Source: Nannochloropsis oceanica (taxonomy: Eukaryota; Sar; Eustigmatophyceae; Eustigmatales; Monodopsidaceae). Taken from it: DNA of 64,000 nt. The position numbers and the translations under genes were made by a program. A model generated the notes under the pieces. It was not told the DNA's origin, did not search any database, and was given only the letters and a program-made list of their open reading frames with translations. The first letter of the stretch is position 1, and each line of letters starts with the position of its first letter. Where the stretch lies: contig CP038115.1 in assembly GCA_004519485.1 (NCBI GenBank), forward strand, positions 248,001 to 312,000, read 5' to 3'. Shown in pieces: positions 1 through 54,728 of the stretch.

Positions 1-1178
1 CCCTCCCTTTCTCCCTCCCTCCCTCCCTCCCTCACATTCCGTAACAACTGCCTCAGGCAAGGCTGGAGGAAACTCTCTTTGCCTTTCACCATCTCTCCTT
101 CTTCGTCATTAAAAAAGAAATCCGAAGGCATAGCAGAAGACTGGGCCGAGAAGACATGGAGGAAGGCGTGATAGAGGGGGAAGTATTGAGGGAGGGAGGG
201 AGAGAGGGAAGCGTGGCAGAGCAGGGCGGTGGTTTCTTTCCAGTGCTTGAGGCCGGCCATGGAGTACAGGTTAAGGAAGAGAAGGAAGGCGAGCTGATAC
301 TCGCCTAGAAGGGCTTTCCAGGCTGACGAAGAAGGAAAAGAAGGAGAAGAGGATGAGGACGAGGAGGACGAGAAGGACGAGGGAAGGAGGGAGGCCGAGG
401 ATGAGGACGAGCCTATTTTACTATACACATCCCTCAACACTTCCTCCAACAGTTGAGAGCGATCCAAGTGGTATCGTGTCACTTCTGCCGGTGTCATGTC
501 CAATGCATTCTTTGGCCGTTTCGCGCCTCGTACATCCGTGAAAGTGGCCGCGTGGCCCAACCCTGGAAAGAACGGCACCAACTCCCCTCCTTCCCTCTTC
601 TCTTCTTCGCCTCGAGCATGTATTTTCTCCTCTTCCCAAGCTCCTGGTAAGATACGCGTTTCCACTTTCAAACCACATAGTGCCAAGACGTCCTCTGTTA
701 TGTACTCGCTCAGATCCCGCCAAAGCCTCCCCTGCTCCCTTTCAGGGTATGCCCCTAATTGCTTGTTCAATTCACCCCTTTGCAGGGCCTGGAGTAGATT
801 ATGCATAGACCCTTCCCGTAGTCCTGTTCCTTGCTCAATTAATTCTTCTTCTGTTGGGTCCCATGATTTGACGAGGACTTCATACGGACGGGAAATGTGA
901 ACGAAAAAGCCTTGGCGGAGGCCTTGGCCTGTCCCGAACGTCAGGAAATGCAAGCCTAAAGGCACGCCCGCAACGCCTCGAAAGTTGGGGCCGACCTGGT
1001 TTATTTGCATGTCGATTCCAAACTCACTCCCGGAGGGCATGCCCAGAATAATAACGATGCCGCCTTCTTGCAAGGGGGGGGGGGGAGGGGAGGTCGAAGA
1101 GGAGCTGGAGACGGGGGAGTGATGCGTAGAGGAGGAAGAGACCGAAGACGCACAAGAGGTATCTAAGTCTTGGTACAT
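1..1178 (-). CDS. AAR2: AAR2-type U5 snRNP assembly/splicing factor (3' end beyond window)
   Basis: The minus frame is open without a stop from an ATG at 1178-1176 to the window edge, about 392 codons, so the C-terminus is missing. Residues about 38-90 carry the AAR2 signature: a hydrophobic strand ending LGMPSGSEFGID, then QVGPNFRGVAGVPLGLHFL and GFFVHI. Further on come TPAEVTRYHLDRSQLLEEVL and, near the edge, EYQLAFLLFLN, LKHWKE and PSDFF, matching the helical C-terminal domain. AAR2 binds Prp8 in the cytoplasm during U5 snRNP maturation. A Ser-rich insert of about 25 residues sits between the two domains and comes from TCC repeats. No intron is needed. The gene is divergent from the Lon-like gene 265 bp away. 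Confidence 0.9.
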   Translation of the reverse strand, partial: MYQDLDTSCASSVSSSSTHHSPVSSSSSTSPPPPPLQEGGIVIILGMPSGSEFGIDMQINQVGPNFRGVAGVPLGLHFLTFGTGQGLRQGFFVHISRPYEVLVKSWDPTEEELIEQGTGLREGSMHNLLQALQRGELNKQLGAYPEREQGRLWRDLSEYITEDVLALCGLKVETRILPGAWEEEKIHARGEEEKREGGELVPFFPGLGHAATFTDVRGAKRPKNALDMTPAEVTRYHLDRSQLLEEVLRDVYSKIGSSSSSASLLPSSFSSSSSSSSSPSFPSSSAWKALLGEYQLAFLLFLNLYSMAGLKHWKETTALLCHASLSPSLPQYFPLYHAFLHVFSAQSSAMPSDFFFNDEEGEMVKGKESFLQPCLRQLLRNVREGGREGERE

Positions 1179-1443
1179 GCTTTTGTGTTGTAGCTGCGGT
1201 GATTGTCTGTGTGTGTAAATGGTCGTCTTGGGGACGGGAAAAACGCTTTAATCATCAGATACCTCCCCCCCCCGTGCAGTTCTGCTCCTATTCACATCGG
1301 CCCCTTGCCACCCTTTTCCACTTGTCGCATATACTCTTAAGACACATTAATCCACGTCCAATCTAAACACGTCACTAGTTACTGCACTTGGGCAAGGTGG
1401 GTGTCTTCAGCTGCAGGATTTTGCGCGCTTTCGGTCAGGTTGA

Positions 1444-4160
1444 ATGATGGAGGCCGAGGACGAAGAAGGCGATGCCATGATGGTCAGCAGCAGGAACAGC
1501 AGTGAAACCAGTCCACCCACAAAGAGCTGCAGCAACAGCAGCAGTAGCAGCAACAACAAACGTCGTTCAGGGCAGGATTATGAAAATCCCGATTTTCTCG
1601 AGCATCTGCTGCATGTCACAGGCATCACGGGCACGGCCAGCAAGCGGCGGATGCTAAAACACTCTCCGTCCTCCCCCCTCTTCCTTCGAAGCACCGACCA
1701 AAATGCTCCCGGCGTGGGCTTTTGCAACAATTGTACGACGAATTTCAACAATAATGTCAATGCCTTCTATTGGTCCTTGCCGTTTCGGCCCACACCTCTC
1801 CAACCAAGCCCACCATCACCACCAATCTCCTCCCCCTTGCTTTTCCTTCAGTCGCCTCATTACGACGAGGTCATGAATACAATTATGAGCGAAGGCGGGA
1901 GAAAAGAAGTAGGGATAGGAAGAGGAGGAGGAGGAATGGCCAGCATGGCGTTATGCGCTCTCCAACGGCAGCAGCAGCAGGAGGAACAACAACATCAGCA
2001 TTACCAGCAGCAGAAGCACCAGCATCAGCATCAGCATCAGCATCAGCATCAGCAACTACTACTACAGCAACTACAAAATTCTGACGGTTGAGCAGGTGCG
2101 CCGCTCCATTACCCCTTAGGAATGGATCTGGGTCTGTTATCTCCATTCACGTCGGTGGCAAGGAAGAGTGTAAATAGTAGCAGCAGCAGCAGTAGCAAAA
2201 GTAGCATGATGGAGGACGAGAAGAATGTTCAGATGAGAGGAATAGCAGCAAGAGTACAAGATCGCTGTAGCACTTCAAGTTCTATTTTCGTCATGAAATG
2301 TAGCGTACTGCCGTGCAGTCGCAGCAGCAGCAGCAGCAGTAGCAGCAGCAGCTGTAATGTAAGGGTGCAAGGGCCAGGAGGGAGGGAGGTGGTCACGTTG
2401 ACAGAAGCAGCTCTCTCTTGGCAAAGGCGTTTTTGCGGCTGTGGGGGAAGGAAGTCAGAAGGTGGTTCAGACTTGGTACGGAGTATGGAGAGTGGTTGAT
2501 GGAGGGAGGGGAAAAGGAGGGGGTGGAGGAGGTTGTAATATATTTGGAGCCGTTGAGGAAGGAGGGCTGCTGGCAGGGGACAGAAGCAGCAGCAGCACTA
2601 GCACCAGCGGCAGCAACAGTAGCAGCACCAGCAGCGACGTTGGGATGTAATGATATGACATGTAGTCGTTCCCTGTTCTCTTCCATCTCTAGTGAAGCAG
2701 CAGCTGCAGTAGGAATGGATGGAGGGGGGATGGGGGTGTCGATCTTCCTTTCGTTGCTACAGCTGTGGGTGAGTAAAGAGAGGCTCGCCTTGAAGCCAAA
2801 CGTGGTGGTCATGGGTGAATTGATGTTGTGCGGGAACATCATCAGCGGGTATTCTCATCGACAGCATCGAGGGAAGGAGAGAGGAAGAGAGGGAGAGGAA
2901 GAGTGTGTGTTGGCGGGCATGCTACGGGCAGCGAGAGAGGGAGGGGTGGGCTGCTTGATCTTACCCAAGGACATGCAGGAGGATGTCGCGTCTTTCCTGT
3001 GTGCCAATGCTGCTGGTGCTGCTAGTGCTGCTGTTGCTGGTGCTGCTGGAGCTGCTGCTGCTGCTGCTGCTGCTCCGAAAGCCGATGTCCGTTTTCTCTT
3101 TGCTGAGGACATTGTGGACTTGCTTGGCTTTGTGAGCGGGTCCTTCTCTTTCTCTTCCTCCATCCCCCCCCCCTCCTACTGGGGTAATCAGGCCTCCTTC
3201 CATCCTTCCTCGTTATCTTTTCGCTCCTCCTCCTCCCCCTCTCCCAAGTTATCGCTGCTCGTGGGGAAACGCCTGAGTTGCACACACGAAGAGAAAGGAT
3301 GGACGGGAGAGAGGGAAGAAGGGTGGATTTACGTGGCACCAACCCTTCTACCTGTCGATGACGTGTCTGTTTCTTTTCGGAGGGTGGAAGTAGCTGTCTT
3401 GTTAGGTGGAGGACGAGGGCAGTTCCTCGTTACAACCACAGGCCTTGCCTCCTCCTCCTCCTCCTCCCTCTCCTCTTTTACCTTTTCATCCCCTTCTTCT
3501 TCAGTAACAGCATCACCCATCCTCCTCTCCAGCAACAGCATCAACCGCACTAGCAGCAGCGGAAGCAATGGCAACATTATCAGTAGTAGGAGACGTAGTA
3601 ATTGTGGAGGAGGAAAAGGAGAAGGCGGAGGAGGAGCCGTCTGTGCCGCAATAAACGTCGCGCGCGTCCTGCTCCTCAAGAACCAACAACAGCTCTGTCA
3701 GTTCCTTGGTCCCCCCACTATCGACCTCCGCGCAATGTCCTCCCTCCCTTCTTCCCTCCCTTCCTCCCTCCGGAAGAAGATTGACATTCACGTTTACATA
3801 CCCCAGTGCCTCCCCTCTGCTGCTGTGGGGGCATATGCCCTCCCTGCCTTTCTTGCCCTCGTTGCTGCGTGCTGGCCTGGTCTCCGGGGCTCCCTCGATG
3901 GGACTGGTAGCTTGGGCGAATTGAACGGGATGGGAACCATGTCACTGCACTCCTGTCGCCTCCCTCCCTCCTTCGTGTCTTCCCTCCCTTCCTCGGTGAT
4001 TCGCAAAATGGTCATGCCCAGGGCGCAAGCGTGTGAGCTGGTGAGGAGCGGGGGCGGGGTGGGAGATAAGTGGCTGCTGGGCAACGGTGTACTAGTGGTG
4101 GGAGCAGAGAGTATTCTGGACGCGATCCAGTGTTTTTTTCTGGGGAACGATGGGATCTAG
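1444..4160 (+). CDS. Tandem degenerate Lon-protease-domain protein (pseudoprotease), reading frame broken or spliced
   Basis: Two diverged copies of the Lon (S16) proteolytic domain can be read. Copy 1 runs from about 2240 (GIAARVQD, IFVMKCSVLP, TLTEAALSW) to about 3150 (LALKPNVVVMGELML, VGCLILPKDMQEDVA, DVRFLFAEDIVDLL). Copy 2 runs from about 3330 to 4155 (IDIHVYIPQCLPS, MVMPRAQACELV, VLVVGAESILDAI). Where active Lon has D-G-P-S-A-G, copy 1 has DGGGMG, and the catalytic Lys is also missing; copy 2 has lost both as well. No AAA+ module is seen. The segment 1444-2091 may be a degenerate LON N-terminal domain (LPFRPTPL then PLLFLQSPHYDEVM), which is weaker. That segment and the one from 2092 share a frame separated by one TGA at 2089-2091. 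The frame then shifts between about 2418 and 2499. An intron, a base error near the T-run at about 2430, or true decay could explain this. Function unknown. Confidence 0.55.
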
Positions 4161-5154
4161 GAAGAGGGAAGATCTATTTCCCTCTTTCCTTCTTCCTACC
4201 CTCCTTGGACGTGCTGCAGAGGACGTAGGAGGAGGTAGGGATGGAGGGAGAGAGGAAAGGACGCGAGAAGAAATTGAAGGAAGAATATATGAGCTGGCCG
4301 GTGTGTATCTAAGAGTGATTGTACAGTGAAGAAATAAGCTCAAAAGCAAAGGGTAAAAGAACTATCACACGATGGGGGGTAGCGGTCGGGAATGGCTGAA
4401 GACGCGTTTCTAGCTCAATTTACAGTGATGGATGATTATTTATTTTTTGTTTACCTCTTCTGTTCACTTTGAGGGGGAGAAGTAGTTGCATTATGTTCTT
4501 GACGCTGCCACAGGGTAGACAGTGGATGGACGTCGCACACAAGTCTTTGAGTGCCCTTCTCCTCATTCCTTCCAGACCCCCTTCCTAATTTTTCTATTTT
4601 GCTCACCATCATTGCGGTAGCCAGGGCATGCTTACGTACTTTCCTGTCGTACTTTTTGGTCTGTTTCTCTTTCTCTCAAAAACCTTCTCTCTCCCTCGTC
4701 ATTGATCTGTTTCCTTCATTTCTCCCCTTCCTTGTGCCTTCTCACACCCCTGAAGGTAAAGCTGAATTCGTGCTCTCATTGTCATTTTCAATAGGGTACT
4801 GCGTGTGCTGTCTGGCCTATGGCAGGGATCATGGAAACATGGCAGCATTCACATCTTTGTCTCTCTTTGTTGATTTATATTTACATGGAAGTGATTTACC
4901 TTTTCGACCTTTTTATTCATTCTGCCGGCCTTGCTCTTAATTTTGTTTTCTCTCCTCAACTTTATTCTTATTCTAATTCTTTTTCCAACTCCTCTTCCCC
5001 ATATTCTTCTTGTCCGCCTCCTTTTCTTGTTCGCCTTCCACCTCTTCCTCCTCCCCTTCTTGTCTTCCTCCTGTCCTACTAAGTTTTCGATCATCCCATT
5101 CGCGTGACTCATTCTCAAAGTTGACTATTCTTCGTGCCTCAGAAATGCATTCAC
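4161..5154. other. Intergenic region, convergent 3' ends
   Basis: This stretch lies between the 3' ends of the Lon-like gene and the PAS gene. It is T- and CT-rich on the plus strand, with only short open frames that look like nothing known. I see no gene; it probably holds the two 3' UTRs. Confidence 0.6.
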
Positions 5155-7005
5155 CTATTCACCTCCATACCCTTCCCTCCCCTCCGGCCTCAAGAACAAC
5201 ACCAACCCAAGCTCGCTCGACCTCAGCGTCAAGTCCACCCTCGTCGACCTCTCCTGTTGATGTTCCTGCTGTTGCTGCTCGACTGCCCCATCTACAGTAA
5301 GCGGGAGGGGAGGCGTGCGAATCGTAACCTGGACAAACATCGTGTTATCGTTACTCGACATGCACTTCCCAACGGCTGCGACTACTGCTCCCGTATCCAT
5401 TTCATCCATCCACTCCCACAAACACCTCCCAGCAAGCGGCTGCTCCTTCCCTCCCCGCAGTGGCAACTTCAACAGCTGATTGCACCGGTCATTCACGAAC
5501 AGGATTCGGGCACTCACGTCTGGGGAGAGCAGTAAAATCGCGTCAGGCGCTGCCGTGACAAGCACCTTGAACATGGACAGCGTATTCACCTTCTCCCTAA
5601 GCTGATTCTCTTTCTCTACCTGCCTCTGACGCGCCATCGCACTGTATTGCCGAGCCCTGGCCTTCTTCCACTCCATCTGTTCCTCTAATGTAAATTCACT
5701 CAAATCCATTTTGGGGGCCCTTCGCTTCCTCTCCGCATAATTCTGATACTGCTGGTTTATCATTTTTCTTCTTCTTCCTCCTCCTCTATTTCCCCTTTCC
5801 CCTTCATTATGCTCCTCCTCTTCCTCCTCGCATTCATTCTTCCAGCTGCTGCTACCACGGCTGTTGCTACTGAGTCTTCCTACGGCAGCAGCAAGTGAAG
5901 AAGCATTCGGGTGAAGCATGGAAGCTGTGTGAGTATGAGACGGGAGTACAGCGGTATTGTGGTTCGGCGCACGCTGTGAAAAATGATTGTGAGGAGGGAG
6001 GGAAGGAGGAAAAGCGCCAGCAGTGGAGGGAGCAAGGAAGCCACCAGAGCCCCCGCCGCCCATTGCAGTGTTGCGGAGGAAGGCGTGCGAGGTGTGGGAG
6101 GGGGCGGTTGAAGAGGAGGTTGAAGATGAATTAGGGAGAGAAAGAAGAGAAGAGCTGGTAGCTGTAGATAGGGAGGGGGAGGAGGAGGAGGAAATAGAGG
6201 AGGAGGGAGTGGAGTTGGAGGTGGAGTTGGACGTGGAGGAGGAGGATGAGGAGGGAGGAAAGTAGGGGGGGAAGGAGGGAAGGAAGGAGGGGGACTGTTT
6301 TTGCTGTTGTTGGGAGGCTAATTGGAGCATGTAGGCCTTGTTATTTGGGATGTGGTAGATTGTGCTGCTGCTGCTGCTGCTGCTATTGCTACTGTTGTTA
6401 AGTTCCATGGCACGATGTCTGTGTTGTGGGGCGCTGGCGGCAGGTGAAGCAAGGTAGGCTGCGGGCTGTCGATACTGCTGATGTTGCCGCTGATGCTGCT
6501 GCTGCTGCTGATACTGGCGTTGTAGATGCTGTAGTTGACGCTGTTGTTGCTGGAGTAGGGCCATTGGGGCAGAGATAGTGGAGGAGAGGGCGGAGAACCG
6601 GCCATGGGGTGGAAAGGACACAGAGGCGGGGGTGCATGTGTCCTTGTCTATGCCATAGCGTGCCTTTGCTGCTGCTGCTGCTGCTGCTACTCGCATTAAC
6701 GATGGTGATAGCGACTGGTGATCATGGTGGGGGTTTTCCATGGAATATTTGGTGGGTTGGGGGGGCGTTGGGACTGAACTTGTCGAGCTCTCCGTCGTAA
6801 TGATGACGGGCCCGGCCGCGGAATCTGCCGCTGATGACGAGGCCGTGGGCAGGGAGGGGAGCGACAAAGTCGAGGGCTTGGAGGGAGGTGTCTCAGTGCT
6901 CTTGACTGCCCGGAGAAGAGATTGGACCGTGCGGGTGCTTTGCGCGGTGCTGTCAGTGCTGGGACCAAGTTTAGGACCGCCGGGCGTGTCTGTATCGGCG
7001 ACCAT
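5155..7005 (-). CDS. PAS-domain protein with long Ser/Gln-rich N-terminus, possible bZIP-like regulator
   Basis: A single 616-residue frame. Residues 1-400 are low complexity: Ser, Gln, Pro and Ala runs. From about residue 427 comes MDLSEFTLEEQMEWKKARAR, then a basic, heptad-like helix (QYSAMARQRQVEKENQLREKV) and at once a PAS domain of about 100 residues (MFKVLVTAAPDAILLL, ARILFVNDRCNQLLKL). Stramenopiles have many bZIP-PAS factors with this order. Here the basic region lacks the usual Asn-x7-Arg pattern, so DNA binding is uncertain. The LOV flavin motif (NCRFLQ) is absent, so it is not an aureochrome photoreceptor. The start is the ATG at 7005 in the context GCCATGGTCGCC on the coding strand. 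That start region is repeated upstream in the 7.0-7.5 kb array. Confidence 0.65.
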   Translation of the reverse strand: MVADTDTPGGPKLGPSTDSTAQSTRTVQSLLRAVKSTETPPSKPSTLSLPSLPTASSSAADSAAGPVIITTESSTSSVPTPPQPTKYSMENPHHDHQSLSPSLMRVAAAAAAAKARYGIDKDTCTPASVSFPPHGRFSALSSTISAPMALLQQQQRQLQHLQRQYQQQQQHQRQHQQYRQPAAYLASPAASAPQHRHRAMELNNSSNSSSSSSSTIYHIPNNKAYMLQLASQQQQKQSPSFLPSFPPYFPPSSSSSSTSNSTSNSTPSSSISSSSSPSLSTATSSSLLSLPNSSSTSSSTAPSHTSHAFLRNTAMGGGGSGGFLAPSTAGAFPPSLPPHNHFSQRAPNHNTAVLPSHTHTASMLHPNASSLAAAVGRLSSNSRGSSSWKNECEEEEEEHNEGERGNRGGGRRRKMINQQYQNYAERKRRAPKMDLSEFTLEEQMEWKKARARQYSAMARQRQVEKENQLREKVNTLSMFKVLVTAAPDAILLLSPDVSARILFVNDRCNQLLKLPLRGGKEQPLAGRCLWEWMDEMDTGAVVAAVGKCMSSNDNTMFVQVTIRTPPLPLTVDGAVEQQQQEHQQERSTRVDLTLRSSELGLVLFLRPEGREGYGGE

Positions 7006-23801: not shown

Positions 23802-24129
23802 TGCTCTGTGGGAGTGATCGTGTGAGATGTGTAAGCATAATGGTTGTGTTGTGTGGAAGGACATGGGAACGTGGAGGATGAGCAGGGGGGGGGGTCAGGA
23901 GGTCGAGCAGCATGGCTGTTTTGGGGTCTTGTTCACAGACAGCTCTCACTTAACACCCGCACGCACGCTTACATACAACAAACATAGATAAAAAGAGAAC
24001 TAGGACGCCATGTCGCGCAAATTTGGATGCGAGAGAAGCCACAACGACCTTGACAAGCTATCGCGGGCAGCAGCCTCATCGATGGGATGGAGGAGGCGAG
24101 TGCTACGATAGGCAACCAGGATAGGCATT
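23802..24129. promoter_or_regulatory. Shared promoter region of NELF-A and TAF1C-like genes
   Basis: These 328 bp lie between two divergent starts. A run of ten G is found at about 23886-23895. I recognise no core element, and promoter function is inferred from position. Confidence 0.35.
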
Positions 24130-26823
24130 ATGGAGGCCGACGAGAAAGACAGCGCCGCCTCTACAGGCAGCAATAATAGCAGCAACCAGGATCATTACTG
24201 CAACAGTACCAGGGCACGCAGACGGCGAATTTATGGGGTGGATCGTCCCGTCCTAGGATATCGAAACGTAGCAGCCTACGTCCACGCACGGGAAGGGCCA
24301 GACGGACGATTTGGCCCACCTCCCGGCAGACAGCGACTAGGAGGGGTTGCTTATTCACAAGCTACCTTGTTGCAGCAATGGCAACCAGATCTTATGCTCG
24401 ACATGGACACCATGGTGGAGTTGCTGAAGGAGGATTGGGAAGAACGGCCAGCTCGACGGAGGGAGGGCATGGAGAGGCAAGGGAATGCGTTATGGATCCC
24501 CTTCTTTCCCCTCGCCTCCAACCAGCAGCACCAACAACAACATTTACTGGTGCATGCGGGGGGGGCTATCATGGACCGGTTGTATTTTTCGTTGTTGGAC
24601 GAGAGAAGGAGCTCAATCAGGAGTGGTGGCGGCCATGAAGAGGAAGAGGAGGAGGAGGAGGAGGAGGAGGAGGAGGAGGAGGGGAGAATACGAAATAAAA
24701 GTAGTAGCAGTAGATTTCATCCTCCGACATGCACGGTGCATGGAGGAGGGATGTGGGTATCGGGAGAAGTAGGGGGTATACGCCAAATTGCACCTTTGAA
24801 TCAATATGAGCCTGCTGTTACCGCTGCTGCCGCTGCTACTGCTCCTCCGACGTGCTTCATCCGGGGGACCACTGAAGCAGCTCTTTTTCAGCTACGACCA
24901 TTAGAGGAGGAGGAGCAACAGTGGTCCTACCCCTTTCTCCTCACCCCTCTCCAAAAGTGTCAGTTTCAGCATCCTCTGCTTGACATAGCCACACGCCCTT
25001 CCTCCCCCCACCGTTGTGCCTTCCTAACCGACCGTCTCGAGGTATTCGAATGGACAAGCGCTGCTGGTGCTACCCGTATCAATTACCAACTCTCTCTTCC
25101 TTCCTTGCTTTCTCCCCCTTCGGTTTCTGCGTCGAGGTTGATGTGGGGGGCGCATCCCCGCTCGCTGTGGTTGAGTATAGATGATGCTGGTGCTGCTGCT
25201 TCCTCTGCAGCTGGTGGCACTTCCCTGTACCACCTTGATTTGAGACAAAAGATAGCGGCAGGTAGATTGAATCTAGGAGGAAGAGGAAGAAGAGTAGATG
25301 GAGGAGGTGGTGGGGGAGGAGGAAGAGGACAAGGAGGGAGGAGGAGGATCACTGCTAAAGGTCATCTGCTCTCCACGGGTCGGTTCCCCTCTGGACTTTT
25401 AGGGCCCGAGAAGCCCTTGGTAGAAGGAGGGAGGGAGGGGGGGAGGGAAGGAGGGAGGGTTGGGGCAATGGAGCGTCATCCCACCGACGAAAATTTGTTG
25501 TTTGTGAGTGTGGCGGAAGCTCTCCTTCTGTTGGACTTGAGACAACCGAGCACCCCTCTAGCGGTGCTACCACAAGCTGACTCATGCCATCTCCTTGCTG
25601 TTGGTCTAGAGCAGCAGCAGCAGCAGCAGCAACAACAACAAAAGACGTGGGTGACCGCGGGATGTCGAACAATGCCCCGGCTTCATTTTCATTTCGAGGA
25701 GGAAGGAGGCGGGAAGGAGGGCGGGACAGCAGTCTCAGGGAGGGGGATCGTGGAGGAGTGGTGCTCGGGAGTGGACTGGTTGACAAGAGGAGGGAGCGAG
25801 GGAAAGAGGGCGGGTTTGAGGTATGAGACTGGCACGTTCGTAAATTGGGATCTCACTCCCGAGAGAGGACAGTCAGTCTGGCTGGCGGGGTTGGGGGCCA
25901 TCCCTTCCTCCCTCCCTTCCTCGTCCTCGTCCTCGTCCTCATCTTTTTACCTGCCGTACCTGACGTCATTGGGCGATCTATACATGCAGCGGGTGTTAGT
26001 GGGAGCGGGAAAGGGAGGGAGGGGAGAGGGGGGGGAGGGATGGCGTACGTGGGAGACGAGGGATATGCCTTGTGGAGTTTCTCGTCACCTTCGCGATGAT
26101 GGAGGGGAGGTGGAGGAGGAGGAGGAGGAGGAGGAGGAGGAAAAGGAGGAGGAGGAGGAGGAGCAGCAGCAGCAGCAGCCACAACAGCAACAACAGCAAC
26201 AACAGCAGCACCAGCAAGAGATAAATAGGAGAAAACTGCAATTATCTTCCCCTTCTATCCCTTCCTTGCCTTCTTCCGCTTTTTTCCAACCCTACGCTAA
26301 AGACGATCTGAAGGACTATCAAGTTGCTGCTCTCGACCCTCCACACACTGCCTTCGGCACTGACCTTCTCGCTGCTCCTGTGGATACCACCTTTAGCAGC
26401 AGTAGCAGCAACTGTAGTAGCCGCAGAGTGGCGACAGATGTAAATAGCAAAGCGCTAGCTCGGAGGACGAGGGAGGGGGGGAAGGAGGGGTTGCATCGCG
26501 TGGTTAGAGAGCAGTGGGGAGAGCTAGCGAAATTCCTGTGTGAGCATCCGAAGAGCTTAATTGAAGTCGCATCGTTTTTGGAAAGAAAGACGAGTGGGTG
26601 CATGAGGGGAGAAGGGGGAGGGATGGAGGGAGAAAGCGGAGGAGGGCAGGAAGGAGGAAGGCGAGGAAAGGTGGCGCGAAGGTTGAGAGACTTATGGGAA
26701 GTCTTGTACGAAGAGGAGGAAGTAGCGAGAGAGGATGGGGGGGAACGACTCATGCACTTACAGTTGGCCATGCCGTCATCGAAAGTGATGAGGGTGGAAG
26801 ACGGAATCCAGGTGGTGGGGAGG

Positions 26824-26855
<32 letters not shown>

Positions 26856-27525
26856 TGAGGAGGTGGAGGAGGATGAGGATGAGGATGAGGATGAGGAGGA
26901 AGAAGAGGAAGGAGAAAGTGGCAAGAGCAATAGTAGTAGCAATAGTAGTAGCAGCAGCAGTGGCACAACGAGCAACTCTGAGGTGGAGGAAAAAGAAGAG
27001 GAGGAGGACAACGAGAATGGATTGACCTCCCTGTCGAAGAGGAGAAAGAAAGCGAAGAAGACGAGGAGGAGACGGTCCTGTACCTGTACAATTGCTGATG
27101 CTGCTGCTGTTCCTATTAGTACCACTACAAGTATTGCTAATGCTGCTGCTTCTGACGCGAGCAGAGATCGGGATAGGCGGAGTGGTGATGGTGTCGTCGC
27201 TACCACTACAGCTGCTGTTGTTGCTACTGTTGCTCCAGCTGCTGAGATGCGACAGAGGCGGCCATGTGGCTCTTCTTCTTGCCTAGTCCCTGCTCTGTGT
27301 CTATATTGGATTGTGGATTCTGATGCCTTAAAGCCAAAACTAAAGCAAGACAAGGAGGAGGAGGGGAGAGGGGACAGGGAACAGCGAGGAGGTAGAGGAG
27401 GAAGGAGGAAGAAGGAGAGGAGAAAACGAGCTTCGGCCTTGCAAGGATTGGACGGGGAGACTCTGCATTGGTTAAGGGCGAAGTGGCATGAGAAACAAAG
27501 CACGATGATTACGGATGTAGTTTAG
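24130..27525 (+). CDS. TAF1C/Rrn6-like RNA polymerase I initiation factor (putative)
   Basis: One uninterrupted frame of 1131 residues. The recognisable part resembles the beta-propeller core of TAF1C/Rrn6: PLLDIATRPSSPHRCAFLTD, then RLMWGAHPRSLWLS, SLYHLDLR, and RHPTDENLLFVSVAEALLLL with LLDLRQPSTPLAVL. This order (hydrophobic blade, W/F-G-x-H-P-R, L-D-L-R, H-P-x-x-x-x-L) is typical of that family, whose members bring RNA polymerase I to rDNA. About half of the protein is low complexity: Glu runs of 10-17 residues, Gln/His and Ser runs, Gly-Arg-Glu repeats from GGGA, and a basic nuclear-type stretch (KRRKKAKKTRRRRS). The call rests on motifs read by eye. A generic WD40 nuclear protein is the alternative. 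Confidence 0.5.
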
Positions 27526-29499: not shown

Positions 29500-29811
29500 G
29501 ATGGCGAGGCAGGGGAGGTCAGACGGCGGCCCATGATGTTCCTTCAATCTTTCGCAGCCCCATTCCCCCTTGTTTTTCGTTAGTTTGGGTTGCCCTGTAG
29601 AACGAATGATACAAAATTGTCCACAAACATTTTTTTCTTGCGGATCTTTGCCCAACCTGTGTTATTTTGACCGGGCACCCGGGGGGAAAAGACCTTTTTT
29701 TCAAATATTCTATTTTGGGCCTACGGGAACCGCGGGCTAAACCAACAACCTTTGGCTCCGAAAATAAAGTCGGCCTCACGTACGCATCTTTACCATGTAA
29801 AACAACAAAGA
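29500..29811. promoter_or_regulatory. Shared 5' region of NDUFAF5 and the polyQ protein gene
   Basis: These 312 bp separate two divergent ATGs. A T-run with TTTTTTCTTG lies at about 29631, and GGGCACCCGGGGGG at about 29674. I see no gene and no clear core promoter element. Confidence 0.35.
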
Positions 29812-31055
29812 ATGACCAGACAGCCGCCAGAGGCCGCGACATGCAAGGGCTCTGCTGCGGCAGGCAAGCCCCAGCAGCCGCCCCCGCCCACCAACGCGCG
29901 TCCTGCATACCTTGCGCTGCCTTCAGTCTACGCCACGCCATCGCCATCCTCCACGTTTCCCCCGCGTAAACTCCCTACCACATCGTCCCAGCTCCAGCCC
30001 TCCCGCTCCCGTCTGAAATACCGTGGAGAGGAGTACGACTCCGCGGCACCGGTGGAAATTACTTTTGACTCGCTGGCGTCGGGCTCGCCTCGGATGGATG
30101 CAGGAGTGGGGCGTGGTGGTAAGGCAACTCACGACAGCAGAGGGCACAACCAGCTCTCCTTGCAGAAACAGCGTGAGTTGGACCGTCTGAAAGAGATCCG
30201 CCGTGCGCAACAGGAGAAGATTGAGCGCGCGAAGGAATGGTTATTGCAACGCCGTGCTTCCTCTGCAGCCCCGTCCCTTTCCTCCTTCCCCTTATCCGCC
30301 TCCGCCGCCTTACCCATCATCCTAGGGTCTACATCCTTCTCTATTGCACATACAGGTCCGCCGTCCTCCGCGTCTCTGTCGTCCTCTTCGATCGCCCTCA
30401 CCGCCCGCCTGGACGAAAAGCCTCCCGCTGTTGAAACCGCTGAGGGGGCGTCTCTGTCAGCCCTCCAGCCTTTGGCTGTAAACTTTCCCAACAAAAACAA
30501 TAAAACAAAGGCCACTTGTGTTCAAGCACTGGTGGCCGAGGCCCTGGCCGCCATCAAGGCAGCGATGGAGAGCAAAAGCACGCAGGTTGAGGAAGGGGAT
30601 TTGCCTGTATCTGCTTCTGGTCTTTTGGCCGTGGATGCGTCGATCATGGCAGCGGTAGCCATCGAACCCTCTCTTTCTCCTTCTATTCTTATAAAAGGCA
30701 ATAGAGTTAAAGGCGAAACTGTATCATACGATGTAGGACAAGGGCAAGAGCATCAGTGTCAGGAACAGGAGGAGCTACCCTTGTCGTTGCCTCATCCGGA
30801 GCAGCTGTTGGCCACGGGAATGGAAGGTATAGTCAGTAGCATACCACCGCAAGACAAGGAGGAAGCGTCGACAACGACAAGAAATAATATCGAGGGCTCT
30901 ATGGCCTCAGCTGCCATTGAACCTGAAGACACGCCCGCGGCTGGGGGGTCGTTATCGTCGCCCCCGCAGGCCGTGCTCTTCTCCTTGCTGGAGCAGCAGG
31001 GTGAGGAGCAGCAGCAGCAACAGCTACAGCTACAGCTACAGCTACAGCTACAGCT

Positions 31056-31120
<65 letters not shown>

Positions 31121-32685
31121 GACACCAACGACGTATGACAGCTTTGGGGGAGCGTTTGGAAGCTCGAACTTTCGTCCGTGGCTTTTTGGTGGAGGTGCGG
31201 AAGGACGTCATCTCCATGCTGCAGGAGGAAGGGGCATTTGACGGACCTGATGCTGTGGATGCTGGTAGCAGTATTGCTCCTGAAGAAGCTGTGGAAGCTG
31301 CAACCGTGAAGGCTGTTGCTACCGCTACAGCAGCTACAACTACTATGGCTGTTGCTGTAGAACTTGTCGCTGCTGCCGGGGCCTCCCTCGCGCAGGTGCT
31401 ACGGGAGGAGGAACTAGCGGGGGAGGACGAGGCGCATAAGAAGGAGGAGGAGGCGGAGCAGGAGGGGCCGCATATTGATCTAAGTGCTGCTAATGTTAAG
31501 AAGAATTTCTTAAGTGCCACCCCTTCGGTAACAATGTTTTCCGCGTCTTATGAGGAAGAGCAGAAGGAGCAGGGGGATGAGGAGCAGCAGGAGCAGCATC
31601 CGCAGATAGGACAAGATATGGTTCTTCCTGCTGACGATGTCTCGGCTATCATCGAGGTGCAGGAGCACGCTGCAGAGGGAGAGAAGGAGATTAAAGTGGC
31701 AGAACTTACCTTCCCTGACCAGCAACAGGAGGCAATGGTTTTGCCTGTCCTCCTGGAGGGAGATGAGGATGTGAAGCCCGGGGCGCAGGCTGAGGTCGTC
31801 ACCCTCTCTTTGCACTCGCAACTGCAACCACCGTTCTTGCATGTGCTTCAGGAGGAGGAAGGGGGTGACGATAAGGAGGCACAAGACGAGCCAATTCTTC
31901 TTGAGCAAGAGGGTGAGGGCTTGACAGTGATGGAGCGGGCCACAGCCGTGGCGGCAGCGGCGACTGACGGGAAGGGGAATCAGCAGGGGCAGCAACAGCA
32001 GGAACAACAGCCCTCTATGCTCGTTTTGGAGCCGGTCGAAGAGAGAAAGAAGGCGGAAGCGCCTGTGGTGGCGATCGAACCTGGTTTGATTGTGACCACA
32101 GCGCCTGCAGGGGAGGAGAAGGAGGAGGAGGAGCAACAGCAGGAGCAGCAGCAGGAAGGGGAGAGGGAGGAGGAGGAGGAGGAGGCGGCGGCATTTGTAC
32201 TACAGGCGGACGAGGAGGAGAAAGAGAAAATGGCGAGCGCGGTAGCCACCGCGGTGGTTCCTGAGGAAGACGAGGAGAAAGAGGAAAAGGAAGAGGAGGA
32301 GGAAAAGCAGCAGCAGCCTGCGTTGGAACCGAGAAAGAAGGAAAGAGGTAGAAAGGAACAAAGAGATGAGGAGGAAGCAGGGGCGTGTGGTCCTCTCCAT
32401 GCGGCGGCAGAAGCTTTTGAAGCAGTCCCCTCTGTTGACAGGGAAGAGGTGCTTGAAGCAGGGGCTGAGGCAGATGCAGGTAGCATGGTTGAACCTACGG
32501 TGGTCCTGTCCTCCGTCTTGGTGGAAGGGGGAGAGGAGGACCAAGAAAGTTCCATTCGGCTCGAAGCGAGTGGGGCGGGCGATGCGACGGAGGAGCAAAA
32601 GCAAGAGAAGGATGAGGATGAGGGCAGCTCCAGCAATGGAAAGGACAGGACAGTGGAAGAGGCAGGCCTGATTGAGGAGGAGTAG
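29812..32685 (+). CDS. Large disordered Glu/Gln-rich protein with polyQ tract, unknown function
   Basis: A single frame of 957 residues from the ATG at 29812. Only a basic-acidic helix near residues 115-145 (RELDRLKEIRRAQQEKIERA) looks structured and could form a coiled coil. The rest is acidic and low complexity, with E/Q/A-rich segments such as EEEEQQQEQQQEGEREEEE and a polyQ run of more than 20 residues encoded at 31057-31119. I recognise no domain. The frame is real in the sense that it stays open for 2.9 kb with codon-periodic composition, but repeat-rich DNA also tends to keep frames open. It could be a scaffold or nuclear protein; there is no evidence for either. Confidence 0.55.
31024..31119 (+). 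repeat. CTACAG then CAG trinucleotide tract inside coding sequence
   Basis: About five CTACAG units lead into a pure CAG tract of 21 units (31057-31119), read as Leu-Gln repeats and then polyglutamine. The purity of the tract suggests length variation between strains. Confidence 0.9.
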
Positions 32686-37317: not shown

Positions 37318-38672
37318 AACATCGAAGGAAATCCAAAGTGGGTAAAACAAAGGATGAAAGGACGACCACGTAGGTGACGTATGAACCAATTTTACCCTCT
37401 TTGATTGCTTCTTTTTTTACTTGAGCGGGCATCGAAGAGGAAAGGAGGAGGATAAGGAAGGGAGGGGATGGGGATGAGGTCCGAGAAAGACGAATGAAGC
37501 CGGGCTGTTGCAAGCAACACAACAACAGATGGTGACGTCGCCAGCCCGAGCCAACAACTGAGCCGGGATTCCTTGAGTGAAAAACACAACGCAGAGGAAC
37601 CAAACTAGTCCTGCGACTTTACATATGTGGCTCGCGCCCTTTTATTCTGGAGCCCTCCCTGCGAGCACATTTGGGTGGAATAGGGGGTATGTGTCCGGAG
37701 GCAAAAGACACGTGCGTGCAGCCAAGAGGTGTTCCTGTTGAGGATGAGGGGAATGCGGCCTATAAAGGCCTCGACCCACCACACGAATAGCATTCACTTT
37801 CTTTATATACCTAGCCAATATATCGATGTGTCCAAGCCATGGGCTTGTTTTTGGCTCCCTAAAGTTCGCTTAGATAAGGCACTTCTTGCCTGCCCTTTCG
37901 CTTCTCGGCCCGCGAGAAGCGAGGGAGGGAGAGAGAGGGAGCTTGTAGGGCATGCCCCAGGTTCTTTTTTTGGGTCCACCCCCTGGGCCCTCAGCCCCCG
38001 CGATAAGCACAATGTGTGAATGCAATGCTTGCCAAGGGCTGTGGGGGATCAGCTCCCCTGCCAGCTGGTCAATTTGTGGTCGGCGCGTGGTCTTAAAGTA
38101 GTCGTGTACACGTGCTCCTCCTTGTTCCTCCCTACCCCCTCCCATGTGTCTTTTGGCCTGCCCCTTCTTACTCCTCCCTCGCACTCTTTCCTGGCCCCAT
38201 CTCCACCCCTATAGACAAGCATCTACCCACATAAATACACTCGGGCGGCGTCGTGACGCGGTCCAAGTGCAGTTTGTGGTCTCAAAGGTGAGAGGAGCAA
38301 AGGCAAGGGTTTGGGCTCTTGTAAGTTTTCCGGGCCTCTTTTCACCTCGTGCATGTGTATCAGTCCACCAGCACATAAATTTGATGTGTTGTGGGTATAT
38401 TAATGTTTGATATGGGGTGTTGACGGCGGGAGGCTTCACATCTTGGGCGAAGTGGGTCATGTCCCCTCTGGTACCCATCTATTGAATGATCTGCCTGTGC
38501 GCCCTCCGCTAGGCTCCCTCGCTCCCTCCCTCGCTCCCACACAGCTGCAAGCCGCAAGCATATACCTACATGTGCAACAAAGAAAGTCTTTCGTTTTAAC
38601 TTATCCCCTCCTACCTCGTCTCCCTTCCGCCCTCCATCTATCCCTCCCTAGACATCGACCGAACAACTACAA
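37318..38672. other. Long 5' region of the bHLH-PAS gene
   Basis: About 1.35 kb with no supported gene. It holds a CTATAAAGG box at about 37758, two CACGTG E-boxes (37709-37714 and 38109-38114) and a hairpin with a 9-bp stem and 5-base loop at 37899-37921 (CGCTTCTCG / CGAGAAGCG). It is likely to contain the PUS1 3' UTR and the promoter and leader of the next gene. Confidence 0.5.
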
Positions 38673-40826
38673 ATGGATCCGACCACGGAAGACATTTTTT
38701 TCAGCGCCGAAACATTTGAACATACTTCCTCCACCTTTACTACTGCCCGTGGCGGTATGCATGGAGGAAAACTGAACAAGCGGCAGCAGCAGCAGCAGCA
38801 GCAGCAGAGAAGGAGCGACCGCAGGCAGCACCAGCAGATGGATGATGAGGACGAGGACGAGGACGATGGGGAATTGTCTGATATGTTATTGAGCGACATT
38901 GACTCTGGGATATTTTTCAATGAGGCGAGCGTCGAATTCTTTGGAGGGGGAGGGGGAGGGGGGGAGGCAGGAGTACAAAAATATCACCAGGGAGGAGAGG
39001 AGGGTAGTGGCATCAGCACCAGCAAGGAGCAGCAGCACCAGCAACAGGAGGACGGCGAGTATTCCTCCCCAGTGCCTTCCTTCCCTCATGCCCTGCTTTC
39101 CTCCAAAAATGTCAGTTCCCTCCCGAGTACGGTTAACAGCGGGCTTTCTTCCTTCCTTGCCGCTGGCCCTCCTCTCTGGAAACAGCCCGCGCCGGGCGTT
39201 TCGCACCACTATCAGCAGCAGGAGGAGAAGCAGCAGCAGCAGCACTTCGGAAGTCAATTCCAGCAGTCGCAGCAATACAAGCAGCTGCTCGAGCCCCCGC
39301 AGCAACATCTCCAGCAGCGGCAACAGCTCCAGCTCCAGCAGCAGCAGCATCAGCAGTTGAGTGTCTCTATGCCTGGCTTTGGATTTGAGAAATTTGGGAC
39401 AGGAAATGCGGTCGTCGAAGGAATGCAAGGGAAGGAGGGAGGGAGGAGGGGGAAAAGCGAAAGCCCGATCGGTCTCATGGATGACGCCGCGTCAATTCTC
39501 TCGTCGGACGCCTCCTCCATCTGGGGAATGGACCCACAGGACGGGAGAGGGGGAGGGAGCGATAACACCATTCCTCCCCAATACCAGATGAATCATGAAG
39601 GGTACAGCGCCTCGTCGTTGATGATGATGTATCCCAGCCCTGGGAGTAGCTCTGCGAGGAGCGCGGTGAGTGGGGTGAGCAGCGGGAGCAACAGTGGCCT
39701 CAGCAACAACAGCAATGGTGCTACAACTGCTGGTGCTGTTGTTGTTATTGGTACTGGTGCTGATGGTGAGACAACTCTGCTTCCGCTGGGTGCAGGGGAG
39801 AAGGCGAAAACGAAGGCGGCAGGAGGAGGGACGAGGCGGACGCTTGGCGGAGGGAGCAGCAGCAGTAGTAGCATCGGTGGTGGTAGTGGAAGAGGAGGTG
39901 GAGGAGGAGGGGGAAGGAGTGTGAGAGCACAAGCGCAGGTGGTGGCTGATGCGAGGGGGGCTGGCGCTGATACGACGAATGTGGGAGGTTTGCCCTCGTC
40001 AGGGGCGGAGGGAGGGAAGGTGTCGAACGGAAAGAGGAAGCAAGATCGTAATGCCAGGGAGCAGAAGAGGAGTTTGAAAATAAGTCAGCAGATTGGGCAC
40101 CTGAAGACAGTGCTAGAGAAGGAAGGGAGGAAGGTGAAGAAGAACAGCAAGATGGCCATTTTGTTGTCGGTGGAAGATTACATCAAGGAGCTGGAAGAGG
40201 AGGTGGCGGGAATGACAATGAGGTGGGAAGGAAAGGAGGAAGGGAGGGAAGACGAGGAGGCAGAATATGGGGGATTTGGGGCCGGGGATGGAATTACCAC
40301 GGTGGCAGCTGGAGCGGCGGTGGCAAGGAGAGAGAGGGAGGAGGAAGAGAGGAATAATTGGAACGGTGTGAGTGGATGTGCAAGGGTGGTGACCGGAGTG
40401 CGAGAGGGGGCGGAGGAGAGGGAGGTGGCGTCGGGGGTGGGGTATCAGTTATTGTTCAAGCAGGTGAGCACCCCTCTGGCGGTGGCAAGTGTAGACGGTA
40501 AGCTGATCGATGCGAACGTGAGGTTTGAGATGGCCTCGGGGTATAGCAAAGAGGAGTTGTTGCGGTTGACCTTCTTTAATCTGGTGTCCCCTGAAGACTT
40601 GCAGACGACATTCGCAGCAATCGCCCGCATGATCAATCAGGGGGGGGAGGAGGACGAGGACGAGAGGGTGGGAAGGAGGGAGGAAGAACTGCTTAAGCTG
40701 ACGAAACGGGCGGTGCCCAAGGGAAGGGCGGGCGGGGAAGAGGGAGGATTATTGTTGTACATAACGATTTCTTTAGTTAGACAGCATGGGCAGAATCCGT
40801 CGTTCTTCCAGTGCAGTTTGCACTAG
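38673..40826 (+). CDS. bHLH-PAS transcription factor (resembling diatom RITMO1-type)
   Basis: One exon, 717 residues. The N-terminal 450 residues are disordered, with Gln/His, Gly and Ser runs. The bHLH domain is at about 455-511: a basic region with RNAREQKRSLKI, helix 1 QIGHLKTVLEKEG, then KNSKMAILLSVEDYIKELEE. One PAS domain follows at about 590-660 (LLFKQVSTPLAVASVDGKLI, SKEELLRLTFFNLVSPEDL), with a short tail ending in FFQCSLH. This REQKRS-L-K-I bHLH joined to a single PAS is the layout of stramenopile bHLH-PAS proteins, which include the diatom diel-rhythm regulator RITMO1. Orthology is inference. Two E-boxes lie upstream, so self-regulation is possible. Confidence 0.8.
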   Translation: MDPTTEDIFFSAETFEHTSSTFTTARGGMHGGKLNKRQQQQQQQQRRSDRRQHQQMDDEDEDEDDGELSDMLLSDIDSGIFFNEASVEFFGGGGGGGEAGVQKYHQGGEEGSGISTSKEQQHQQQEDGEYSSPVPSFPHALLSSKNVSSLPSTVNSGLSSFLAAGPPLWKQPAPGVSHHYQQQEEKQQQQHFGSQFQQSQQYKQLLEPPQQHLQQRQQLQLQQQQHQQLSVSMPGFGFEKFGTGNAVVEGMQGKEGGRRGKSESPIGLMDDAASILSSDASSIWGMDPQDGRGGGSDNTIPPQYQMNHEGYSASSLMMMYPSPGSSSARSAVSGVSSGSNSGLSNNSNGATTAGAVVVIGTGADGETTLLPLGAGEKAKTKAAGGGTRRTLGGGSSSSSSIGGGSGRGGGGGGGRSVRAQAQVVADARGAGADTTNVGGLPSSGAEGGKVSNGKRKQDRNAREQKRSLKISQQIGHLKTVLEKEGRKVKKNSKMAILLSVEDYIKELEEEVAGMTMRWEGKEEGREDEEAEYGGFGAGDGITTVAAGAAVARREREEEERNNWNGVSGCARVVTGVREGAEEREVASGVGYQLLFKQVSTPLAVASVDGKLIDANVRFEMASGYSKEELLRLTFFNLVSPEDLQTTFAAIARMINQGGEEDEDERVGRREEELLKLTKRAVPKGRAGGEEGGLLLYITISLVRQHGQNPSFFQCSLH

Positions 40827-52978: not shown

Positions 52979-54728
52979 ATGGAGGTGCGAGCAGAGATCT
53001 TGGAGGCGCTGCATAATGCGGCGGCAGACATAGACGAGGTAAGCAAGCAAAGACGACATGGGAAAATCGTGGCGGCGCGGGGTTGGACCTCATTATCCGC
53101 AGGACAACAGTGGAGCAATCTTGCAGGGGGGAGAAGGGGAGAAATCAAGGGAGGAAGAATAAGGATAGAGGAGGGTGGGTCGTGACTTCATTAGATTTTG
53201 CGTGCGTGCGCCTTATGCGACGCGTAGAAACCGATCATCAGGTCCTCAATATGACCCTCCCATTCCTCCAAACCCATACACACAAACACACCACACAACA
53301 CAGTCCACCGATGAAGAAAAGCTTGAAAAACTCCGCCTGAATGGCTTCTGTAATGATTTGGAAGCCCCCTTACCAGCTTCCTCCGCCCTCTCCTCCTCTG
53401 CCCACGCCACACCTAGCGTGGCCCCAGCCTCCTGCACTCTCTTCATCATCGTCGCCGCCCTCGTCTCTGTCGGGACCGTCCTAACGATTATCACCAAACT
53501 CATGACGATACCGATGGCTAATTACACTTCGGCTCTCACCCTTCAAACCGTCTTCGCCTTTATTCCTCTCACCTTCATCCACATTGGCTTCAAACACAAA
53601 ATGGGCAAATTGCTCCGTGCAGATTTCTTCTACCCCTGGAAGCCTGTCGTGATTATCTCCATCCTTTACGCCCTCGGCCAGTTTCTCTTCATTTTTGGAA
53701 CACAATTCACCAGCGGCCCAATACAAGTCATTATATCTCAATCAGCCATTCCATTTAGCATGGGCATTTCGCATTTAATGCTTGGCTCGAACTACAGGAG
53801 AAGACATTACATAGGAGCCGTACTCGTCGTTCTCGGCATCATCCTCGCAGTCGGTGGCTCTCTTGCCAGCGAACAAATCGATGCATTCGAAGCAGGATGG
53901 ATTGTTGGCTACATACTCTCTATGGTGCCCCCGGTTATTTACACGGTCTACAGCGAGAGCCTCTTCAAAGAGAGAGCTACCCCTCCTGACCCTGTCATTT
54001 TTACGGGGCTAATCTCCACCATTCAATTTTTCTTCCTCTGCCTTCTTGCTCCCATCTTTCCCTACCTCGAACAACCTCCATCTACCCTCTCTTCTCTCCT
54101 TCCCTCGCTCCTCGCGGGGGGGAAGTGCTTGGTAGGGATAAATACATTGCCTTCGGACGACTGCTGGCCCCTTGCTCCCTCCCTCGTCCTCACCTACAAC
54201 ATTTTAAATATTGTCTTACTCTACCCCACGTTCGCCTTGCTTGACCGCGGGTCATCAAATGTCTTCTGGCTCGCCTGCACACTGATTGTACCCTTTTCGG
54301 GATTTGCTTTCTCCCTTCCCGTAATCCCCGACGCCCAACCAGTGACACTTGAGAACAGCCTCGCGCTCTTGGTCATTGTGCTCGGCTTGGGGACCTACGG
54401 TTTCTCCACGAAAACGGCTGAGGCGGGGTTAGCATACATAAGACGAGCTTTATCGGGGCAGAGAGCCATTGCCAGCGATAGTGACAATTTGCTGACAAGG
54501 CTCGAGATGGTCTCTCTTCCTTCGTCCTCCTCTTCCTCCTCGTCTTCCTCCTCCTCCTCCACCACGGCAACCGTCTCCATCATGTCCTCCTTCTCCTCCC
54601 TTCCTTCTCCACTCTCGCCCTCAACGCCACAGGTACGCCAACGAGGGCCGAATGAAAAGAAGAAGGGAGAGAATGTGGCCAGCACTTTGCCGTCTCCCTT
54701 CCTTCCCACCGGCGCCGGAAGAGGATAG
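52979..54728 (+). CDS. CRT-like (chloroquine-resistance-transporter family) drug/metabolite transporter
   Basis: Exons 52979-53038 and 53304-54728 join in phase 0, 494 residues. About ten hydrophobic helices can be seen from residue 65 on, for example CTLFIIVAALVSVGTVLTII, VVIISILYALGQFLFIFGTQ and YIGAVLVVLGIILAVGGSLA. The motif PIQVIISQSAIPFSMGISHL followed by Y-R-R-R-H-Y-I-G-A, and later PPVIYTVYSESLFKE, fit the CRT-like branch of the DMT superfamily. Plant and algal members move glutathione or other small thiols or peptides across plastid or vacuole membranes; the substrate here is unknown. The first 60 residues lack a clear presequence. The tail after residue 430 is Ser-rich and cytosolic by inference. 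Confidence 0.78.

Follow-up and report, generated by a model that had tools for sequence, protein, structure and literature searches.

A degenerate, motor-less Lon_C protein in the alga Nannochloropsis oceanica and a tandem Lon_C gene in the same genome

Lon usually joins motor and protease in one polypeptide, and its protease domains pack as hexameric rings. A gene in a 64,000-nucleotide stretch of the Nannochloropsis oceanica genome (the window; C18:248001–312000 of a 29.26-Mb, 32-contig genome) raises the question of whether the protease fold has persisted in an alga without its motor and without its active site. A first-pass annotation had read positions 2122–4160 as one protein with two tandem Lon protease domains, both lacking catalytic residues and neither attached to an AAA+ motor. 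We find that the window gene encodes a degenerate, motor-less Lon_C protein and that a second gene, on contig C28, is the firmer half of the story.

Plain sequence searches gave no sign of this ancestry. Pfam, NCBIfam and PDB sequence searches of the window protein returned no Lon, the Pfam gathering score for Lon_C (PF05362; S16) was not reached, and PF05362 was absent from both halves at E ≤ 10 over positions 2418–4157, an outcome that, at the plain-sequence level, the first-pass annotation had itself named as counting against its claim. We built Lon_C profiles from 36 Lons and, in a later version, from 75 Lons with or without both domains of the C28 gene. In hhalign against the 36-Lon profile, window positions 2421–3140 scored 30.3, which none of 200 shuffles reached (best 22.9), and among 137 stop-to-stop window ORFs of at least 120 aa the Lon-like ORF ranked first (30.6; next 18.7). 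HMMER with filters off and a Lon-only profile gave the first half 7.5 bits, or 18.7 bits with its low-complexity inserts cut (0/1000 shuffles in each case), and the profile of 75 Lons plus both C28 domains gave 11.8 and 22.9 bits, respectively (0/2000 each). For the spliced product predicted below and for its domain 1 with inserts kept, one of 1,000 shuffles reached the Lon-only HMMER score and none of 1,000 did so once the C28 domains were added. Global hhalign of the first half was matched by 0/300 shuffles with inserts cut, and a repeat with the profile of 75 Lons plus C28 gave 0/100 both locally and globally. Across 462 algal ORFs (≥100 aa) from 16 sources, a set that is not random because 13 of the sources were fetched for similarity to the queries, an hhalign score of 25 or more was reached only by exons of C28 and by the window ORF, which is present a second time in the overlapping locus L010. 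Together, these profile comparisons show that the first half of the predicted window protein descends from a Lon_C protease domain.

Structure prediction of each half, proposed as a check in the first-pass annotation, succeeded for one half only. AlphaFold was supplied in both cases with 27 Lon rows from viral contigs, and the first-half model, being built with Lon rows, leans towards Lon. This model has a mean pLDDT of 58.5, with block means of 54–89 from residue 101 and below 54 before it, and every one of the 33 PDB chains that Foldseek returned at E ≤ 0.001 is a Lon (best E 1.2e-4, probability 1.00); the best 50 of 211 rows are all Lon proteases, and the matches include hexameric LonA entries, by title. 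The second-half model, built with the same rows, has a pLDDT of 44.2 and no Lon among its 21 matches, which indicates that supplying Lon rows is not enough to impose the fold. Its alignment places the start of the domain poorly, a fault that could by itself spoil the model, and the result is therefore not a clean negative.

We next examined the catalytic positions. The Lon serine-motif site (2718–2735, plus strand) reads DGGGMG for DGPSAG, with serine replaced by glycine in both alignments, and a Ser-Lys dyad is excluded in the first half because this serine is missing. The lysine column of the first half (GG-x-KEK) holds glutamate, with acidic residues there in the second alignment too; a KER in a nearby insert fits the column only by an extra insertion, an unlikely alternative, and judged from these alignments the catalytic lysine has almost certainly been lost. 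In the second half, neither alignment puts a lysine at the lysine site, and the serine column holds alanine in one alignment and, in another, made with MAFFT, sets PSAA on PSAG. The earlier statement that the catalytic residues are gone thus holds for the first serine, almost certainly for the first lysine and for the lysine of the second half, and depends on the alignment (Ala or Ser) for the second serine; a Ser-Lys dyad in the second half appears very unlikely, and the predicted protein is probably inactive as a protease. Nor was a motor seen, in agreement with the first-pass annotation: Pfam detected no AAA+ family in three frames over 1444–4157 or in the two neighboring genes. A genome search with AAA (PF00004), in which 19 of 128 candidates were scored, has its nearest listed matches on C18 ~100 kb away and adds nothing on this point. 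Compared with Lon_C (PF05362), domain 1 of the window protein (2700–3125, plus strand; supported by hhalign, HMMER and AlphaFold/Foldseek) keeps the order of elements from the serine-motif helix to the C-terminal helix and the predicted fold, whereas it lacks the catalytic serine, has a changed lysine site, carries large low-complexity inserts, falls below Pfam detection and has no AAA+ module that we could see.

A search of the genome, in which only candidates were scored, revealed at least six Lon_C matches in at least three genes, with loci at C7:7580 (a complete Lon_C), C7:973945–974438 (Lon_C exons) and C28:187312–188124. A plant Lon survey reports that algae have a single mitochondrial Lon and lack a peroxisomal one (PMC6460959); in the genome studied here, a second Lon-type locus lies at C7:973945, besides C28. 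The C28 gene, identified with Pfam and hhalign, lies on the minus strand of locus L007 (C28:183000–191500) from 5188 to about 3166, with inferred GT-AG introns at 3921–3665 (257 nt) and 3545–3439 (107 nt), and its predicted product, with splicing inferred, is at least 552 aa long and contains two Lon_C domains, D1 and D2. A 422-aa exon piece matches Pfam Lon_C at 7.5e-47, and against the PDB the exon piece comprising D1 and most of D2 retrieves Lon proteases (best 9.4e-28, aligned to D1). D1 keeps both serine and lysine (NGPSAG, GNVKEK). D2 aligns to Lon columns 22–200 in hhalign (score 124.4, 99.1% probability), its serine motif now reads DVSING and its lysine is lost. Pfam found no AAA+ in the three pieces of the gene scanned. 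The last exon came to light through an unassigned ORF that scored 26.6 in the 462-ORF scan and reads as the end of D2; this value is close to the score of the window second half and fits the score scale.

For close relatives of the C28 tandem, prokaryotic genome contigs yielded one weak match, in a Gly-rich stretch at query residues 295–334, viral contigs yielded none, and 0/63 matching plasmid records cover 80% of the C28 query. Among 41 genomes of one phylum no listed frame has two Lon_C domains, and in three frames a single domain is split over two pieces. In the open-access literature, among the matches listed, no tandem Lon domains without AAA+ are described in any eukaryote, and no tandem dead Lon in algae, which agrees with the novelty that had been claimed for the window protein.

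Is the window gene a relative of the C28 gene? The two predicted proteins resemble each other in having no visible AAA+ module, a Lon_C region first and long low-complexity stretches, and in both a second Lon_C region follows the first, as a candidate only in the window protein. They differ in that the C28 protein has two clear Lon_C domains with the Ser-Lys pair kept in D1, whereas the first domain of the window protein has no catalytic serine. Once extended by C28 D1 and D2, the 75-Lon profile scored window domain 1 at 35.4 instead of 29.5 and domain 2 at 28.4 instead of 26.6 (34.7 and 28.6 with a corrected C28 D2). The Smith-Waterman tests used a version of C28 D2 that ended in intron-coded residues; hhalign and HMMER were repeated with the corrected D2 and behaved alike. 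In Smith-Waterman comparisons domain 1 scored 63 with the C7 Lon, 59 with a bacterial Lon, 57 with C28 D2 and 52 with C28 D1. When the genome was searched in six frames for matches to the window ORF (E ≤ 1), it returned the gene itself and nine other places, none of them C28 or another Lon gene and three of them (L029, L030 and L031) repeats or low complexity by eye, and the reciprocal six-frame search with C28 did not return the window gene. Descent of both genes from one tandem ancestor is thus plausible on architecture, and sequence searches do not link them.

Whether the window protein is itself a tandem turns on its second half, a candidate Lon_C-like domain at 3345–4157 (plus strand) with a Ser/Asn/Gly-rich insert, on which local profile tests and global and structure tests differ. 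The competing account, a realistic possibility that we hold at somewhat less than even odds, is that a single dead Lon_C domain occupies the first half and that the second half is unrelated or disordered low-complexity sequence, with no tandem at all. In local hhalign the second half scored 26.4, above all 200 shuffles (best 20.6), and with C28 in the profile its 28.4 compares with 22.7 for the best unrelated ORF among the 462; this alignment spans only 16–18 columns, and the signal comes chiefly from a single strand motif, KKIDIHVYIP, within the best-matching segment LPSSLRKKIDIHVYIP (3756–3803, plus strand; hhalign local 26.4–28.6), which corresponds to the Lon ...DVHIHVP strand. Globally the alignment fails, with shuffles reaching the score in 216/300 and 39/300 cases and, in a repeat, in 27/100 and 40/100. 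Lon-only HMMER gave 1.3 bits (15/1000 shuffles), or 1.9 bits with the insert cut (9/1000), with 7–15 of 1,000 shuffles reaching the score across Lon-only profiles; with 75 Lons plus the C28 domains these values became 4.2 bits and, with the insert cut, 7.3 bits (1/2000 each). The best of four Smith-Waterman partners was C28 D2 (59; 1/500 shuffles), barely ahead of a bacterial Lon (58; 2/500), in a match that is partly Gly-rich. The single-domain account also draws on the model of domain 2, which is un-Lon-like despite the same 27 Lon rows, although the poor alignment at the start of the domain alone could spoil it, and on the absence of a clear codon signal in frame 3 over 3381–3920. Against it, strand, helix and strand elements of domain 2 can be traced by eye in Lon order in the alignment down to the C-terminus. 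The C-terminal strand-helix-helix-strand-helix (4008–4142, plus strand), with block-mean pLDDT of 58–76, is the best part of the otherwise poor model. The earlier claim of two tandem Lon domains therefore stands for the first half, where profile tests beat shuffles, and is only suggested for the second; Lon_C ancestry of the second half, and with it a tandem architecture of the window protein, is plausible.

We favor, at a probability of about 0.4, a reading in which the window protein is a pseudoprotease derived from a Lon S16 domain, a far-diverged relative of the C28 tandem that has been kept as a non-catalytic ring subunit or regulator. Within it, we infer that domain 2 derives from Lon_C, that the window gene and C28 share an ancestor and that the protein has an oligomeric role. 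The window protein would be a derivative of the Lon proteolytic domain, most likely distantly related to the C28 tandem, in which D1 keeps serine and lysine and D2 has lost both; domain 1 of the window protein has lost serine and almost certainly lysine, and domain 2, if it is Lon_C, has lost its lysine. Since Lon domains pack six per ring, three copies of a tandem protein could complete one, and the window protein may contribute non-catalytic subunits to such a ring or regulate it, either by itself or together with the C28 protein. With serine and lysine in its first domain, the C28 protein is a candidate partner for such a scaffold or regulatory role.

These proposals borrow from known systems. 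The Lon-like domains of RadA and ComM are not known to be proteolytic and are attached to ATPase DNA motors, whereas the window protein showed no ATPase domain; BrxL is a bacterial defense protein with an ATPase module, a further difference from the window protein; SepM is grouped here with YlbL; and ClpP/ClpR and FtsH/FtsHi offer analogies for protease and pseudoprotease subunits. The Lon-like domain of RadA and ComM serves as a hexamerization module (PMC11612176), which is the oligomerization role proposed for the window protein and the model for it. BrxL of BREX shares an inactive Lon fold, having a C-terminal inactive LonP (PMC12839542). Bacterial YlbL, for which no domains other than transmembrane, Lon and PDZ are described, shares the Lon domain; it differs in being membrane-anchored, with a PDZ domain, a single Lon domain and a putative Ser-Lys dyad that is kept (PMC6051672). 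FtsHi in Arabidopsis provides a precedent for pseudoproteases in plant organelles (PMC8197885). By analogy with these systems, the simplest role for the window protein would be that of a regulator or of an oligomer subunit with a non-catalytic Lon fold. A bolder version, which we consider rather unlikely, combines a half-active C28 protein and an inactive window protein in a two-gene, motor-less tandem Lon system whose mixed three-subunit rings would have their proteolysis tuned by the inactive share; the logic of pseudoprotease subunits in such proposed mixed rings is comparable to that of ClpP/ClpR and FtsH/FtsHi. If the favored reading is true, algae would have separated the Lon fold from its motor and put it to new use. 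C28, with one active site, and its window relative, with none, would form a pair open to test: one can ask whether cleavage by the C28 protein is independent of ATP and whether the window protein is bound to it.

How the protein is encoded bears on a third account, that the locus is a decaying pseudogene of the C28 family. The interval 2122–4160, first read as a single protein, is divided between two frames (2122–2499 in frame 1 and 2358–4157 in frame 3) that a putative intron could join. Frame 3 is open for 600 codons from 2358 to the stop at 4158–4160, longer than every open frame in Markov resamplings of 1401–4300 (0/1000 at each of orders 1, 2 and 3; longest 442). A putative 68-nt GT-AG intron (GTAAGGG...GGCAAAG, 2359–2426, plus strand) has the top simple consensus score (22) of 113 frame-restoring GT..AG pairs of 40–350 nt, with runner-up candidates at 2170–2426 and 2151–2404 scoring 20 each. 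It would explain the change of frame near 2420 and would join, in phase 0, a putative first coding exon (2122–2358, plus strand, frame 1, from ATG 2122, with a weak codon score) to the main coding exon (2427–4160, plus strand, frame 3), giving a predicted spliced product of 656 aa; ATG 2499 is an alternative start for the frame-3 exon. A one-base change at 2420, either a sequencing error or a true frameshift, was also weighed, and the intron was preferred. The stretch 2122–2421 shows no Lon strands beyond chance, with its similarity reached by 226 of 500 shuffles and a score of 29 against 22–30 in the other five frames.

Upstream, a Gln/His repeat-rich open frame (1444–2091, plus strand, in the same frame 1 as 2122–2499) has a weak DUF533 match below the Pfam cut-off and is ended by a TGA at 2089–2091; it is a candidate N-terminal part of this gene or else a separate one. 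A pyrimidine-rich acceptor-like site ends at 2119. A 33-nt intron excising the TGA at 2089, noticed by eye, was rejected as too short beside the inferred C28 introns of 257 and 107 nt. The codon score, for which 12 long ORFs of the window served as training set, is weak throughout; it makes frame 1 the top plus frame in nearly all stretches over 1401–2390 and frame 3 in most stretches over 2391–3380, with a minus frame higher in two stretches of each region; over 3381–3920 the value for frame 3 drops close to zero, often below that of another frame. The switch of this score near 2390, where frame 3 takes over from frame 1, the in-frame TGA of the upstream frame and the loss of catalytic residues are what one would expect of decay, yet a neutral copy so diverged would hold many stops. 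A 600-codon frame that is still open in so diverged a gene suggests that the protein was once under selection; in addition, the GT-AG intron can account for the frame change, and either ATG 2122, with splicing, or ATG 2499 yields an open product. We therefore regard a pseudogene as unlikely. That a composition-biased protein without Lon ancestry resembles Lon by chance, as the lack of a Pfam hit and the much Ala-, Ser- and Gly-rich sequence might suggest, is highly improbable given a frame-3 first half that shuffles never reached in hhalign and HMMER (1/1000 for longer spliced forms) and that ranked first among the 137 window ORFs.

The gene is flanked by an AAR2 homolog (3–1178, minus strand) and by a Gln/Ser-rich protein (5155–7005, minus strand) with a weak PAS match (0.00036, just under the Pfam cut-off). 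Elsewhere in the window, plus-strand ORFs of 1137 and 1004 codons (24112–27522 and 29671–32682) have no Pfam match at E ≤ 0.0001, and an ORF at 53169–54725 (plus strand) matches a CRT-like (chloroquine-resistance-transporter-like) membrane transporter family at 2e-46. At 38652–40823 (plus strand), one ORF of this alga matches both a PAS fold and a helix-loop-helix DNA-binding domain, a pairing reminiscent of bHLH-PAS proteins.
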